From the NCBI GenBank assembly GCA_012514535.1, contig JAAZAA010000239.1, forward strand, positions 1 to 64,000: a stretch of 64,000 bases of DNA, in the 5' to 3' direction. Below, piece after piece: positions 13,653-18,392 of the stretch. The position numbers and the translations under genes are program-made. The notes below the pieces were generated by a model. The model was not told the origin of the DNA. It saw only the letters and a list, made by a program, of their open reading frames with translations, and ran no database searches. The stretch comes from Myxococcales bacterium (GTDB taxonomy: Bacteria > Myxococcota_A > Polyangia > Polyangiales > Polyangiaceae). The number at the start of each line of letters is the position of its first letter. The stretch's first letter is position 1.

Positions 13653-14405
13653 ATGGTTTCGCTCCGTCCGCTCCTGATCCGTCCGGGTGATCCGCCGGTC
13701 TTCCCGGATCCGCTGGCCGCCGATGGGGATGGCCTCGTCGCGGTGGGCGGTGATCTGCGGCCTCAGCGCCTCCTGCTCGCCTACGAGCTCGGCATCTTTC
13801 CGTGGTATGATGGAGAGATCCCCCTGTGGTGGAGCCCCGACCCCCGCGCGGTGATGACGCCCGAGCGGCTCCACGTGTCCCGCAGCTTCCGGCGCTTCTT
13901 CCGGAAGACCCCCTGGACCGTCACCTGCAACAGGGCGTTCGCCGCGGTGATGGTGGAGTGCAGCCGCGAGCGCGCCGACGGCACCTGGATCCACACGGAG
14001 GTCATCCAGGCGTACACGGAGCTGCACCGCCAGGGCTACGCCCACAGCTTCGAAGTGTGGGACGGCGAGCAGCTGGTGGGCGGGCTGTACGGAGTGCAGC
14101 GGGGCGGGCTGTTCGCGGCGGAGAGCATGTTTCACCGGCGCACGAACGCGTCCAAGGTCGCGCTGTGCACCGCGGTGCTGGCGGTGTTCGCGCTGGGGAT
14201 CGAGGTCTTCGACGTGCAGTTCGTGACCGATCATCTCGAGTCGATGGGGGCCTTCGAGATCCCGCGGCGCGATTACCTGCGGCGGGTGCGGACGGCCCTG
14301 CCCCGGCACGTCCCCCTCGGCGCCCTGTCTCAACGCAATCCTCTCGCCCTCGCCCGGGCCGAGCTCGAGCGGATGCGGGCCGCAGCCCCCGATCCGCTGC
14401 CCTGA
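13653..14405 (+). CDS. aat: Leucyl/phenylalanyl-tRNA--protein transferase
   Basis: A 250-residue cytoplasmic enzyme that transfers Leu or Phe from tRNA to N-terminal Arg/Lys of proteins, marking them for ClpS/ClpAP (N-degron pathway). The family signatures are all present: FPDPLAADGDGLVAVGGDL, LGIFPWYD, WWSPDPRAVM, TWIHTEVIQAYTELHRQGYA, SFEVWD, GGLYGV, ESMFHRRTNASKVAL and DVQFVTDHLESMGAFEIPR. Length is normal. The ATG at 13653 matches the usual N-terminus. Monocistronic in this window. Confidence 0.96.
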   Translation: MVSLRPLLIRPGDPPVFPDPLAADGDGLVAVGGDLRPQRLLLAYELGIFPWYDGEIPLWWSPDPRAVMTPERLHVSRSFRRFFRKTPWTVTCNRAFAAVMVECSRERADGTWIHTEVIQAYTELHRQGYAHSFEVWDGEQLVGGLYGVQRGGLFAAESMFHRRTNASKVALCTAVLAVFALGIEVFDVQFVTDHLESMGAFEIPRRDYLRRVRTALPRHVPLGALSQRNPLALARAELERMRAAAPDPLP

Positions 14406-14547: not shown

Positions 14548-15891
14548 ATGTCGAAGGAACGCGTTTCTCCGCCGCAACCCGTGTACGTCATCGAGTCGAT
14601 CCCCGCCGGTGGTGACAACGACGTCACTCCCGAAGAGGCGCACGCCGAGGGCATCCCGACGCCCGAGCACCTGCGCATCTTCAAGGAGCTGGGGCGCGGC
14701 GGCATGGGCCGCATTCACCCCGCCACGGATCGCAACCTGCTCCGCCACGTCGCCCTCAAGCGACTCGACAAGGAGATGGCGCGGGAGCCCTTCTACCGCG
14801 ACGGGTTCATCGCCGAGGCGCAGATCACCGGGCAACTCGAGCATCCGAACATCGTCCCCGTGCACGAGCTCGCCATCGGCGACAACGGGGTGCCGTACTT
14901 CACGATGAAGCTGGTGCGCGGCATGAACCTCGATCGCTGGCTGCGGCACCCCTCGCGGCCGCCGGGCTCCTCCGAGCGCCTGGAGGGGGGCCTCGAGATC
15001 TTCCTCAAGGTGTGCGACGCCCTCGCCTACGCCCACCACCGCGGCGTCATCCACCGAGACATCAAGCCGGAGAACATCATGGTCGCCGGCTTCGGGCAGG
15101 TCTACTTGATGGACTGGGGCCTGGCGCGCCTCACCAAGACGCAGCCCGCGTCGGGGGCGATGTCCCAGATGAACGCCCCGGGTCCCGTCGGCACGGCGAG
15201 CTACATGGCGCCCGAGCAGGCGCGGGGCAACCCCGCGGAGATGGACGAACGCAGCGACGTCTTCGGACTGGGCGCCGTCCTCTACGAGATCGTGTCGGGC
15301 CGGCATCCCTATGGCACGAGCCACGACGTGGAGCTGTGCCTGAAGCGGGCCGTGGAGAATCAGGTCATCCCGATCGCCGAGGCCGCGCGCGACATCGGGC
15401 TCTCGACGCGCCTCGAGCGCATCATCGACCGCGCGGTGGCGCCGCGCCCCGAGGACCGCTACCAGAGCGTGCTCGAGCTGCAGGCGGACGTGCGGAGGTT
15501 CGTGCGCGGTGGCCTGCACCTGCCTCGCCAGGTCTTCGAACCGGGCACGCTGATCGTCAAGGAGGGGGACGTCGGCGACACGGCCTTCATGATCATCAGC
15601 GGACGCTGTCGCGCGTTCCGTACGGTGTCCGGGGCCGCCGGCGGCGGAGAGCAGGAGACCCTCGCTCTGATGGGCGCCGGGGACGTCTTCGGCGAGATGG
15701 CCCTGCTCCTCGAGGAGCCTCGGGCCGCCAGCGTCGAGGCGGTCGATCGGGTCACGACCCTCGTCCTCGACAAGCGCACGATGCAGGACGGGCTCGGCAT
15801 CGACGGCTGGACGGGCGCCCTCGTGCGGGCTCTGGCCCAGAGGTTTCGCGACCTGGAGGCCACCGTGCGCGCCTCCGGTCTCCGGCGCTGA
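14548..15891 (+). CDS. Ser/Thr protein kinase fused to a cyclic-nucleotide-binding domain
   Basis: A 447-residue cytoplasmic Hanks-type kinase. Kinase domain about 43-320: Gly loop GRGGMG (49-54), ATP Lys71 in ALK, catalytic HRDIKPEN (169-176), metal loop DWG (189-191, the usual bacterial variant of DFG), APEQ (221-224). Residues 325-415 form a CRP-type cyclic-nucleotide domain (PGTLIVKEGDVGDTAFMIIS) whose phosphate cassette FGEMALLLEEPRAAS keeps Glu383 and Arg392. Ala rather than Thr after that Arg is, from PKA/PKG comparisons, the cAMP-type residue. There is no membrane segment. The fusion implies nucleotide control of kinase activity, as in eukaryotic PKG but with domain order reversed. 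The convergent neighbour carries the same sensor domain. Confidence 0.9.
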   Translation: MSKERVSPPQPVYVIESIPAGGDNDVTPEEAHAEGIPTPEHLRIFKELGRGGMGRIHPATDRNLLRHVALKRLDKEMAREPFYRDGFIAEAQITGQLEHPNIVPVHELAIGDNGVPYFTMKLVRGMNLDRWLRHPSRPPGSSERLEGGLEIFLKVCDALAYAHHRGVIHRDIKPENIMVAGFGQVYLMDWGLARLTKTQPASGAMSQMNAPGPVGTASYMAPEQARGNPAEMDERSDVFGLGAVLYEIVSGRHPYGTSHDVELCLKRAVENQVIPIAEAARDIGLSTRLERIIDRAVAPRPEDRYQSVLELQADVRRFVRGGLHLPRQVFEPGTLIVKEGDVGDTAFMIISGRCRAFRTVSGAAGGGEQETLALMGAGDVFGEMALLLEEPRAASVEAVDRVTTLVLDKRTMQDGLGIDGWTGALVRALAQRFRDLEATVRASGLRR

Positions 15892-16034
15892 CCCGCGCGA
15901 CGGCGCTCATCACTGCGGCGGCCGCGGCTCCCGTTTTCCGCGGCGCTCCCCACTGCGTCGACCACGGCGCGTCTCCTCCGCGTCACCCCGGGCTGGCGAG
16001 CGTGGGCAGCGTCGCTCGGCGGCCGCGCGGCGCG

Positions 16035-17537
16035 TCACTGCTGCGCCGCGAAGAAGCGGCGAATCCGAGCCAGCAGGACGGGCGCCGTGTCCCGGGATCG
16101 CGTCGAGCTCTCCGTCAGCTCCTGGGCGCCGAGGGCCGCGCGGCGCGCGACGAGCACCTCGCTGATCTGCGCCAGCACCTCCGGCTCCTCGCCGAGCACC
16201 GCCTGGAACGCCGGTCGCTTCACCACGAGGAGCTCACACTCGGTGGCCGCGCGGACGGTGGCCGCGCGCAGCTCGCCTGTCATGAGGCCCATCTCCCCGA
16301 AGAACTCCGCGCGCCCCAGGCTGGCCACCGTGTGGGTCACGGCCCCGCGCTCGACCTCGACGGACACCTCCCCCGAGACCACGATGAACCAGTCCGTGCC
16401 CTCGTCCCCCTGCCGCACGATCAGCTCTCCGCGCCCGAACCGCTCGATGCGCGACAGCTCCGCCAGCCGCTGACGGCCCCCGCTGCTGAGGGGCGCCAGG
16501 AGATCCACCTGCTCGAGGACCTCCACCCGCCGCGCGAGATCCTTGCTCCCGTTGCTGCGTTCGCGGCGCTCGATCTGCACCCGGCGCCGCACGGCGGGGA
16601 GCTCGTAGCCGGCGCGGTTCAGCGCGTACCAGCAGTTCCGGTACACCTCGCCCGCGATGTCCTCGCGTCGCTCGTACTGGTCGATGTGGTACCGCAGCCA
16701 GTAGCGCACCCCCCGCTCCGTGAACTCCTGCACGAGGGCGTTCGGCGGCGGGTACTCGAGCACGCCGTCCACCCTGGCGGCGCACTCTTCGAGCAGCGCC
16801 AGCACCTCGCCGGGCGGCGCGTCGAAGGGGGCGTCCACGTAGACGGAGCGGCGCACCAACGCCGTCGGCCGCGAGAAGTTCATGATCGGGGCGCGGGCCA
16901 GCACCCCGTTCGGAACCGTGAGGATGACGCGGTCCGACGTCTCGAGCTTCGTGGCGCGCCAGTTGATCTCCACCACGCGCCCCACCCGCCGGCTCTGCTC
17001 GTCGAACTGGATCCAATCGTTCAGCTCGAAGGGGCGCTCCCCCTGGATGGCGAGGCCCGCGAAGAGGTTGCCCAAGGTCTCCTGGAGGGAGAGACCGATC
17101 ACCGCCGTCAGGAGCGCGGAGGTCGCGAGCAGGGAGGTGGGCTCCACTCCGGCCTCCCGCAGGGCGATCAGGGCCACCCCGATGAACACCCCTGCCTGGG
17201 TGATGTCCTCGAGGATGCGCGGCACGCGGTACCCCAGGCGGCGGGCCACGAGGCCGTGGACCAGGATCAGGAACGCGCTCCGCCCGATGGACGCCAGCAA
17301 GAAGAAGAGCGCGCTGAGCCGCAGCGTCTTCGCCAGCGCGTGCGTCTCGGGGAGCGCCAGGATGACGACCCGACACACCACGTACAGCAGCAGCAGCAGC
17401 AGGCCCAACCGAGCCAGCCTGCGCTCCTCCCGGGGCAGGGTGAGCCGCGAGACGAGCCACGCCGCGCCCGCGGCGATGACGCCGAGGACGAACGTCTGAA
17501 TGGCGGAAGGGTCCTGGACCAGGTCCTCGAAGGGCAT
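16035..17537 (-). CDS. MscS-family channel with C-terminal cyclic-nucleotide-binding domain (bCNG type)
   Basis: A 500-residue inner-membrane channel. About four to five membrane helices lie in residues 10-165; the pore-lining helix and start of the MscS beta domain are in the stretch ALLTAVIGLSLQETLGNLFA, followed by GLAIQGERPFELNDWIQFDE, GRVVEINWRATKLET and VPNGVLARAPIMNFSRP. A cyclic-nucleotide domain fills 345-445 (ELIVRQGDEGTDWFIVVSGE; cassette FFGEMGLMTGELRAAT with Glu415 and Arg424). This is the bacterial cyclic-nucleotide-gated subtype of MscS, expected to open on nucleotide binding rather than simple tension. The ATG at 17537 was chosen; an ATG at 17549 would overlap the putative -10 box. 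Confidence 0.9.
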   Translation of the reverse strand: MPFEDLVQDPSAIQTFVLGVIAAGAAWLVSRLTLPREERRLARLGLLLLLLYVVCRVVILALPETHALAKTLRLSALFFLLASIGRSAFLILVHGLVARRLGYRVPRILEDITQAGVFIGVALIALREAGVEPTSLLATSALLTAVIGLSLQETLGNLFAGLAIQGERPFELNDWIQFDEQSRRVGRVVEINWRATKLETSDRVILTVPNGVLARAPIMNFSRPTALVRRSVYVDAPFDAPPGEVLALLEECAARVDGVLEYPPPNALVQEFTERGVRYWLRYHIDQYERREDIAGEVYRNCWYALNRAGYELPAVRRRVQIERRERSNGSKDLARRVEVLEQVDLLAPLSSGGRQRLAELSRIERFGRGELIVRQGDEGTDWFIVVSGEVSVEVERGAVTHTVASLGRAEFFGEMGLMTGELRAATVRAATECELLVVKRPAFQAVLGEEPEVLAQISEVLVARRAALGAQELTESSTRSRDTAPVLLARIRRFFAAQQ

Positions 17538-17547
17538 GGGTCCGCGC

Positions 17548-17575
17548 ATTGTACATGGGCCCCGGCGCTTGCCAG
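17548..17575 (-). promoter_or_regulatory. Putative sigma-70-like promoter of the MscS gene
   Basis: On the minus strand, CTGGCA (17575-17570), a 16-bp spacer and TACAAT (17553-17548). Transcription would begin about 4-6 nt before the ATG at 17537, so the message would be nearly leaderless. No Shine-Dalgarno is visible, which fits. Based on consensus matching only. Confidence 0.4.
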
Positions 17576-17724
17576 CGGGCACCGGAGCAGTCCACGTCGG
17601 CCCGAATCAGCTGACGCGGCGATGGTGGAAGGACACGGCGCTCCCGATCCGGGACGGCGGCGCCCCCTCCCGTCCGAGTTCGGCCGGGAGGGACGTTCTT
17701 CGGGCGGGAAAGGAGCCTTCATCG

Positions 17725-18012
17725 ATGCCCATCCGATCCATTGGTCTGGTCGTCCTCCTGCTCGGGCTGGGGGGCTGCGGCGCCGACGACGTCGTGAGCA
17801 CCGCACCCACATGCCGCGACGTGTGCAACCGCTACCAGGATTGCTTCGACGACGACTTCGACGTCACGGGTTGCACCCACGACTGCGCCGACGCCGCCAT
17901 CGACGACGAGGCGTTCCAGGACCGGGTCGAGTCCTGCGAGGACTGCCTGGACCGCACCTGCGTGGCCGCCGCGTTCGCGTGCCCGGCGGAGTGCGCCGGG
18001 ATCGTCCCCTGA
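17725..18012 (+). CDS. Small Cys-rich lipoprotein
   Basis: A 95-residue lipoprotein (MPIRSIGLVVLLLGLGGC, lipobox GGC) whose mature part holds many paired cysteines (CRDVCNRYQDC, CTHDC, CEDCLDRTC, CPAEC), probably disulfide-bonded in the periplasm or at the surface. A strong AAAGGAG lies about 10 bases before the ATG. Such short Cys-rich lipoproteins are common in myxobacteria and have no known function. It diverges from the MscS gene and has its own upstream region (17538-17724). Confidence 0.75.
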   Translation: MPIRSIGLVVLLLGLGGCGADDVVSTAPTCRDVCNRYQDCFDDDFDVTGCTHDCADAAIDDEAFQDRVESCEDCLDRTCVAAAFACPAECAGIVP

Positions 18013-18392
18013 GGGCCGGCGCGGACCCGGGACGCGGAGCACTTTCATTTGACCCGATCCGGAGCTCTCCGATCCCCGCTGGGCCGGCGCGTCGACTGCT
18101 CGCTCCCCCCGACGCCCGCGGACGTCCCGGACACCGCGCCGCCAACAGAGAATTTCTTCAACGATTACGCCATTTTGCAAATTCTCTCTTATTCCGATTG
18201 AAAAGGTGATAAATGGCTTCCGTCGCCGCCCCAGCGGTGATGGGGGGCAGGCTCGGACCAGTCACCGGACCTCGCCCTCGGCAGAGCTCCCGCTTGGCCC
18301 TCTCCGGTCGTCGACAGCCGGTCGCGGACAGCCCCTCTCGGCCCCCGGGCCTTGGCACCATCTGCCCCTCGGCAACACCCAAGGATCCTCCC
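18013..18392. other. Long intergenic leader before cysD
   Basis: 380 bp without an assigned gene. An AT-rich island (about 18140-18212) stands out in GC-rich surroundings and carries the inverted repeat listed separately, so it is the likely cysD promoter. An ATG at 18213 with a strong upstream AAAAGGTG is in frame with cysD and open throughout. Either CysD has a ~60-residue low-complexity N-terminal extension, or this is a leader segment. No known riboswitch consensus was recognised. Confidence 0.5.
18147..18187. promoter_or_regulatory. 9-bp perfect inverted repeat upstream of cysD
   Basis: AGAGAATTT (18147-18155) and AAATTCTCT (18179-18187) separated by 23 nt, inside the AT-rich promoter island. 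The spacing (about three helical turns centre to centre) suits a dimeric regulator operator, or an RNA stem if transcribed. The regulator is unknown; a sulfur-assimilation regulator is the natural guess. Confidence 0.5.

Follow-up and report, generated by a model that had tools for sequence, protein, structure and literature searches.

In the eukaryotic kinase PKG, tandem cyclic-nucleotide-binding (CNB) domains are placed before the kinase domain, and bacterial channels that combine the MscS beta domain with a C-terminal CNB domain are reportedly those for which Caldwell et al. 2010 introduced the name bCNG. The DNA analysed here is a stretch of 64,000 nt from a Myxococcales bacterium (hereafter the window; contig C165 of a genome assembly of 5.77 Mb in 442 contigs, 98.8% complete), in which the gene for a PknB-type Ser/Thr kinase and the gene for an MscS-type channel, each with a CNB domain at its C-terminus, are direct neighbours. 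The 2007 survey of Kannan et al. tabulates CNB domains attached to bacterial mechanosensitive channels and names 'kinases', without giving detail, among the partners of bacterial CNB domains (PMC2246266; this and the other papers cited are represented here by excerpts), a 2024 study of Planctomycetota kinases includes CNB among the kinase-associated domains (PMC11032199), and PP2C-cNMP proteins (Mxan4398 and others) have already been described in myxobacteria (PMC2887360). In the open-access literature, we found no bacterial Ser/Thr kinase for which switching by a cyclic nucleotide has been demonstrated, and no description of the kinase-CNB family to which the window kinase belongs.

A preliminary description of the locus had suggested that phosphorylation and ion flux are both governed from this single place by the same second messenger. 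The reading favoured here, to which we give a probability of about 0.68, is that the window encodes two independent cyclic-nucleotide effectors that are neighbours by chance in this species, namely a bCNG-type channel and a member of a conserved kinase-CNB family, both responsive to cyclic AMP (cAMP). The locus itself is ordinary, with a known channel type beside an unrelated kinase. What is noteworthy is the kinase family, which is strongly conserved over many genera and has an invariant cassette. If this kinase is indeed switched by a cyclic nucleotide, bacteria would possess their own counterpart of the textbook PKA/PKG pathway, in a small one-chain form in which allostery would be easy to study.

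Adjacency of the kinase and channel genes in related genomes

Open reading frames and Pfam matches confirmed the gene pair as previously described: the kinase-CNB and MscS-CNB genes are convergent, with stop codons 143 bp apart, and the phosphate-binding cassettes of both proteins are intact, have the sequences given before and contain the same RAA motif. Being convergent, the two genes are not part of one transcript; a search of the 143-bp gap for a terminator-like site found none. Both proteins were searched against a set of 97 related genomes that contains the window's own, and the surrounding DNA was examined at 21 of the 22 other kinase-ortholog loci and at 19 channel-relative loci, in each case by running both proteins with tblastn. 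A channel was found near none of the 21 kinase orthologs, and a kinase ortholog near none of the 19 channel relatives (one of the latter loci, L193, has kinases without a CNB domain nearby). Downstream sequence of at least 2 kb was available in 18 of the 21 kinase loci. Furthermore, the two families did not co-occur: channel relatives were present in 9 of the 23 kinase-bearing genomes versus 34 of the 74 others (Fisher p 0.64; counts tallied by hand, at a channel threshold of E < 1e-80 picked after the data had been inspected). The pairing is therefore not conserved in relatives, an outcome that the preliminary description itself had named as refuting, and the proposal of one messenger acting from one locus is not supported.

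The two genomes of the same genus (G001 and G002) indicate how the present arrangement may have come about. In both, aat lies directly upstream of the kinase gene. In G002 the aat-kinase pair is followed by cysN ~330 bp further on, and in G001 the pair is kept with cysN and cysD beyond it, the channel relative being located ~85 kb away on the same contig. The cysN gene is oriented against the kinase in both congeners, whereas in the window cysDN runs the same way as the kinase with the channel in between. Relative to the two congeners, the cysDN flank of the kinase (window positions 15892-18212) has the reverse orientation, and the channel lies between kinase and cysDN. Based on this difference in orientation and the intervening channel, it seems that a local rearrangement in this lineage made the kinase and the channel neighbours. 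Clustering of open frames over the 21 ortholog loci and the window revealed no operon or neighbourhood partner of the kinase, since the widely shared frames were the kinase and its shadow frames only (reverse-strand and out-of-frame clusters were excluded as high-G+C artefacts), and aat, cysN and the genes upstream of aat recurred within the genus only.

In the whole genome, 14 CNB matches fall within 13 reading frames, and the number of adjacent CNB-CNB gene pairs expected by chance is ~0.03, assuming ~5,000 genes. Such an adjacency is thus mildly unusual, but this assessment was made post hoc, and relatives do not keep the adjacency. Together with the intact RAA cassettes in two genes so close to each other, this mildly unexpected adjacency is what speaks for a one-locus module, in which the same second messenger would steer phosphorylation and ion flux and the kinase would perhaps phosphorylate the channel. 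We regard such a module as highly improbable, and as a conserved unit it is largely refuted: the convergent genes share no transcript, the pairing is missing from every locus surveyed, the genome counts give no co-occurrence, and the congeners have cysN next to the kinase (G002) or the channel relative at a distance (G001). The adjacency of kinase and channel is probably an accident.

The kinase family and the channel

Judged by its domains and alignment, the kinase is a conserved stand-alone family of this bacterial order, in which a PknB-type kinase is fused directly to one CNB domain (Pfam Pkinase and cNMP_binding; Table 1). Orthologs of 63-73% identity and near full length were found in 23 of the 97 genomes, including that of the window (the copy in G038 runs off its contig). 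The catalytic residues K71, E90, HRD 169-171, K173, N176 and D189 are kept in all 23 orthologs, and in the cassette of the CNB domain F, G, E, A385, P, R and A394 are invariant in the same set. Over the 23 orthologs, the kinase domain has a mean identity to the window kinase of 0.69, the CNB domain one of 0.685 and the C-terminal helices one of 0.705; by these near-equal values, constraint on the sensor matches that on the enzyme. In the C-terminal helix, W421, L425, R432, F433, L436 and E437 are present in 22 of the 22 sequences that reach it, and L429 in 21. At the other end of the protein, a short motif (PVxVIExIP) stands out, with a mean identity of 0.70 over aa 11-21 versus 0.08 over aa 1-10, and it could perhaps be a docking or inhibitory segment.

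An AlphaFold2 model of the kinase was built from 44 sequences (the window and loci of a named-organism search), with a mean predicted local distance difference test score (pLDDT) of 87.3 and a predicted template modelling score (pTM) of 0.77. In this model there is no helical bundle ahead of the CNB domain, and the last kinase helix is followed within 7 residues by the first strand of that domain (aa 327). Matches in the fold search cover almost only the kinase part, and the CNB domain was assigned on sequence.

Of 140 genomes sampled from the phylum, 19 also contain a match to the whole kinase-CNB protein at E ≤ 1e-70. Direct kinase-CNB fusions of 28-34% identity occur at loci named Lentisphaera marina, Verrucomicrobia and Fibrobacterota (L078, L079 and L080). 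Among the at least 80 loci of the named-organism search, 43 were scanned for open frames, and 3 of these encode kinase-CNB fusions. Inspected by eye, the Lentisphaera protein (L078:5830-7806) has a long extra C-terminal extension, perhaps a winged helix. The window's own genome encodes a second kinase-CNB protein, L198 (G000:C27:7179-8378), which is 46% identical to the window kinase and has an RSA rather than RAA cassette.

By its domain order and cassette the channel is of a known class, the bCNG type. In addition to the Pfam matches of Table 1 it matches MS_channel_3rd (E 7.7e-05), and a hydropathy plot has ~5 peaks before the beta domain (aa 26-49, 59-77, 90-108, 123-141 and 148-166). Among the 97 genomes searched, 42 besides the window's own have relatives at E < 1e-80 (35-49% identity; counted by hand), and the cassette G, E, R and A441 are invariant in the window channel and 29 relatives (30/30). 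The reading frame may begin at a GTG, giving 515 aa, or at an ATG at position 17537, giving 500 aa. A single-sequence structure model of the channel reached a pLDDT of 39 and was not used.

Table 1. Features of the kinase-channel locus (window positions; aa, amino acids of the encoded protein)
Feature	Position	Strand	Basis
aat (leucyl/phenylalanyl-tRNA-protein transferase), upstream of kinase, same strand	13653..14405	+	PF03588
PknB-type Ser/Thr kinase with C-terminal CNB domain, 447 aa	14548..15891	+	Pfam; PDB sequence and fold matches to PknB; 22 orthologs
N-terminal motif PVxVIExIP, aa 11-21	14578..14610	+	23-ortholog alignment; low model confidence
Protein kinase domain, aa 45-306	14680..15465	+	Pfam Pkinase (E 3.5e-39), alignment
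Last kinase helix, aa 308-320	15469..15507	+	AlphaFold2 model; sequence conserved
Kinase CNB domain, aa 328-414	15529..15789	+	Pfam cNMP_binding (E 4.8e-18); nearest solved chains eukaryotic PKA-R and PKG
Kinase phosphate-binding cassette FGEMALLLEEPRAASV, aa 381-396 (E383, A385, R392)	15688..15735	+	Alignment
C-terminal helix, aa 420-442	15805..15873	+	AlphaFold2 model, alignment
MscS-type channel with C-terminal CNB domain (bCNG-type)	16035..17582	-	Pfam; relatives in 42 other genomes
Channel CNB domain, aa 380-463	16194..16445	-	PF00027 cNMP_binding (E 2.9e-21)
Channel phosphate-binding cassette FFGEMGLMTGELRAATV, aa 427-443 (G429, E430, R439)	16254..16304	-	Alignment
MscS beta domain, aa 169-238	16869..17078	-	PF00924 MS_channel_2nd (E 3.3e-15; 56.4 bits vs cut-off 20.2)

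Ligand and source of the messenger

The preliminary description called both proteins cyclic-nucleotide-gated effectors and took the Ala that follows the cassette Arg in each as a sign of cAMP. The former claim stands in part: with the cassette Glu and Arg kept in 23 of 23 kinases and 30 of 30 channels, both proteins are probably cyclic-nucleotide effectors; their gating is presumed from sequence. The latter claim falls, the position not being a fixed one. The residue after the Arg is Ala in 8 of the 30 channels (with R in 6, T in 4, S in 4, K in 3, N in 2, M in 2 and Q in 1) and in 20 of the 23 kinase orthologs (S in 2, Y in 1), and in a wider set of 34 kinase-CNB proteins, of which 33 have the Arg, it is A in 21, S in 7, T in 5 and Y in 1. 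Both A and S are found there in those CNB frames of the window's genome that keep the cassette Arg. The rule itself derives from eukaryotic PKA and PKG, and in the survey of Kannan et al. 2007 the consensus is RAA for PKA, RTA for PKG and bacterial channels, RSA for a bacterial group that includes kinases, and RPA for Crp-type regulators (PMC2246266). Given this variation among relatives and among the survey consensuses, the mark is uninformative on the ligand in bacteria. More can be drawn from trypanosome PKA, which binds nucleosides instead and in which the PKA positions A202 and R209 are replaced (PMC10959531). Their equivalents in the window kinase, A385 and R392, are, like E383, invariant in 23 of 23 orthologs, which favours a cyclic nucleotide as ligand. 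Most likely, both proteins respond separately to cellular cAMP.

In line with the preliminary description, the window holds no cyclase: class III cyclase matches number 0 on its contig and 3 on other contigs. A search outside the window for an adenylate cyclase gave two likely candidates, both on contig C316 and ~25 kb apart (L210, G000:C316:29169-29690; L209, G000:C316:4379-4834). Compared with the PDB, one of these domains matches 2w01 and 6fht (E 2.1e-39 and 7.2e-39) and the other Rv1264 (1y10; E 2.7e-19). Since cyclases are encoded elsewhere in the genome, a cyclase-free window is no puzzle. One class III cyclase lies, by eye, behind an apparent FHA-like N-terminus. The class III cyclase profile PF00211 was matched in all 23 kinase-bearing genomes and in 96 of the 97 overall, and cyclase presence therefore does not discriminate. 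The phosphodiesterase profile PF00233 matched none of 14 control genomes either, making that search uninformative.

Other CNB proteins of the same genome have various outputs. L203 (G000:C36:15369-16739) is a PP2C phosphatase-CNB fusion; matches to such fusions at E ≤ 1e-60 were counted by hand in 85 of the 97 genomes (22 of the 23 kinase-bearing ones and 63 of the 74 others, a few matches stopping short of the CNB part), which is too common to inform on co-occurrence. By eye, L204 (G000:C416:4049-4300) consists of a CNB domain followed by a GGDEF-like domain and has lost the cassette Arg, making it a possible link to cyclic di-GMP that is independent of cyclic nucleotides, L202 (G000:C319:13686-13931) places a CNB domain at the front of a membrane protein resembling CAAX-type proteases, and in L207 (G000:C228:2524-2760) a CNB domain is joined to a long protein, one stretch of which resembles uridine kinase. 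With several CNB outputs scattered over the genome, a general cAMP pool fits better than a private circuit. A shared messenger is plausible in a general sense only, with a common supply of cAMP that may be sensed by many CNB proteins.

That the CNB domain of the kinase is no longer under ligand regulation, and now serves as a dimerisation or docking module, would agree with the strong conservation of the C-terminal helix and with the existence of CNB families that have non-canonical cassettes (PMC2246266). We consider this unlikely, given the invariance of E383, A385 and R392. Moreover, the degenerate-looking CNB domains of the same genome (on C416, and the second domain on C226) lack the cassette Arg, indicating that such a loss is visible when it happens. 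A ligand other than cAMP, be it cGMP or another cyclic mononucleotide, or one that differs between kinase and channel, appears more unlikely still. The eight residue types after the Arg in channel relatives would be compatible with it, as would the bacterial CNB enzyme Bd1971, which is activated by cAMP and cGMP alike (PMC6717892), but the PDB matches of the two better cyclases are adenylyl cyclases; a third cyclase-like protein is, by eye, without the usual Lys.

Several points weigh against two chance neighbours that each respond to cAMP. The kinase loci L162, L167 and L171 have merely 0.5-1.0 kb of downstream sequence, and the chance expectation of ~0.03 may leave room for a recent, species-specific link between kinase and channel. 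As for the ligand, intact cassettes seen in an alignment are no proof of nucleotide binding, and the Ser (two) or Tyr (one) after the Arg in three kinase orthologs means that the ligand could vary.

Proposed working and comparison with known systems

Under the favoured reading of two independent effectors, cAMP would be supplied by the class III adenylyl cyclases encoded elsewhere in the genome and would dock in the kinase cassette through E383 and R392. The cassette would then move and the C-terminal helix be repositioned, and, since the last kinase helix leads straight into the first strand of the CNB domain, the kinase lobe could be reoriented and its activity changed. A kinase dimer along the C-terminal helix would perhaps transmit this change. 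In the bCNG-type channel, the cytoplasmic CNB domain would tune gating. In this scheme we infer cAMP as the ligand and its switching of kinase or channel, as well as the sense in which activity would change and any dimer. A further-reaching idea, which we put forward tentatively and hold to be rather less probable than even, is that the kinase is a bacterial counterpart of PKG. That is, it may be a one-chain, cAMP-switched Ser/Thr kinase that arose independently by the joining of a CNB domain to a PknB-type kinase, with the last kinase helix replacing the helical bundle usual before a CNB domain and a Crp-like C-terminal helix coupling two chains, and might form a cAMP-controlled phosphorylation cycle with the PP2C-CNB protein that most genomes of the order have.

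Like bCNG or 'Channel_Bact' proteins, the window channel carries, after its MscS beta domain, a CNB domain with a canonical cassette at the C-terminus. It differs from the survey consensus in having Ala rather than Thr after the cassette Arg, at a position that is variable among its relatives, and we found no feature setting it apart from the bCNG class. The kinase is closest to Mycobacterium tuberculosis PknB, which is its best PDB sequence match (E 3.5e-49) and its best fold match (5u94, Z 32.6, root-mean-square deviation 1.9, 259 aligned residues). The profile of PASTA-containing PknB/Stk1 kinases (NF033483), however, gives 228.4 bits against a cut-off of 450 and covers the kinase part only (profile positions 10-271 of 563), and, unlike PknB, the window kinase has a CNB domain after the kinase domain.

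With the myxobacterial PP2C-cNMP proteins, one of which is encoded in the same genome on C36, the window kinase shares a CNB domain on an enzyme of the phosphorylation network; those proteins are phosphatases and not kinases, and the excerpt of their description makes no mention of kinase-CNB fusions. Bd1971, the cAMP-sensing EAL phosphodiesterase of Bdellovibrio, is a bacterial signalling enzyme, too, with a CNB domain as its switch, and its structure 6hq3 matches the window CNB domain (E 4.6e-10). It has a single linker helix in place of the classical N3A bundle (PMC6717892). Its output is the hydrolysis of cyclic di-GMP, however, and its CNB domain is N-terminal. To PKG, finally, the window kinase is similar in joining kinase and CNB in one chain, with a CNB domain nearest to those of PKA-R and PKG. 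It differs from PKG in that its CNB domain is single and C-terminal instead of tandem and N-terminal (the match ranges agree with this), in that its model predicts no helical bundle before the CNB domain, and in that its kinase domain is nearer to PknB than to PKG (E 5.9e-32 for the latter).

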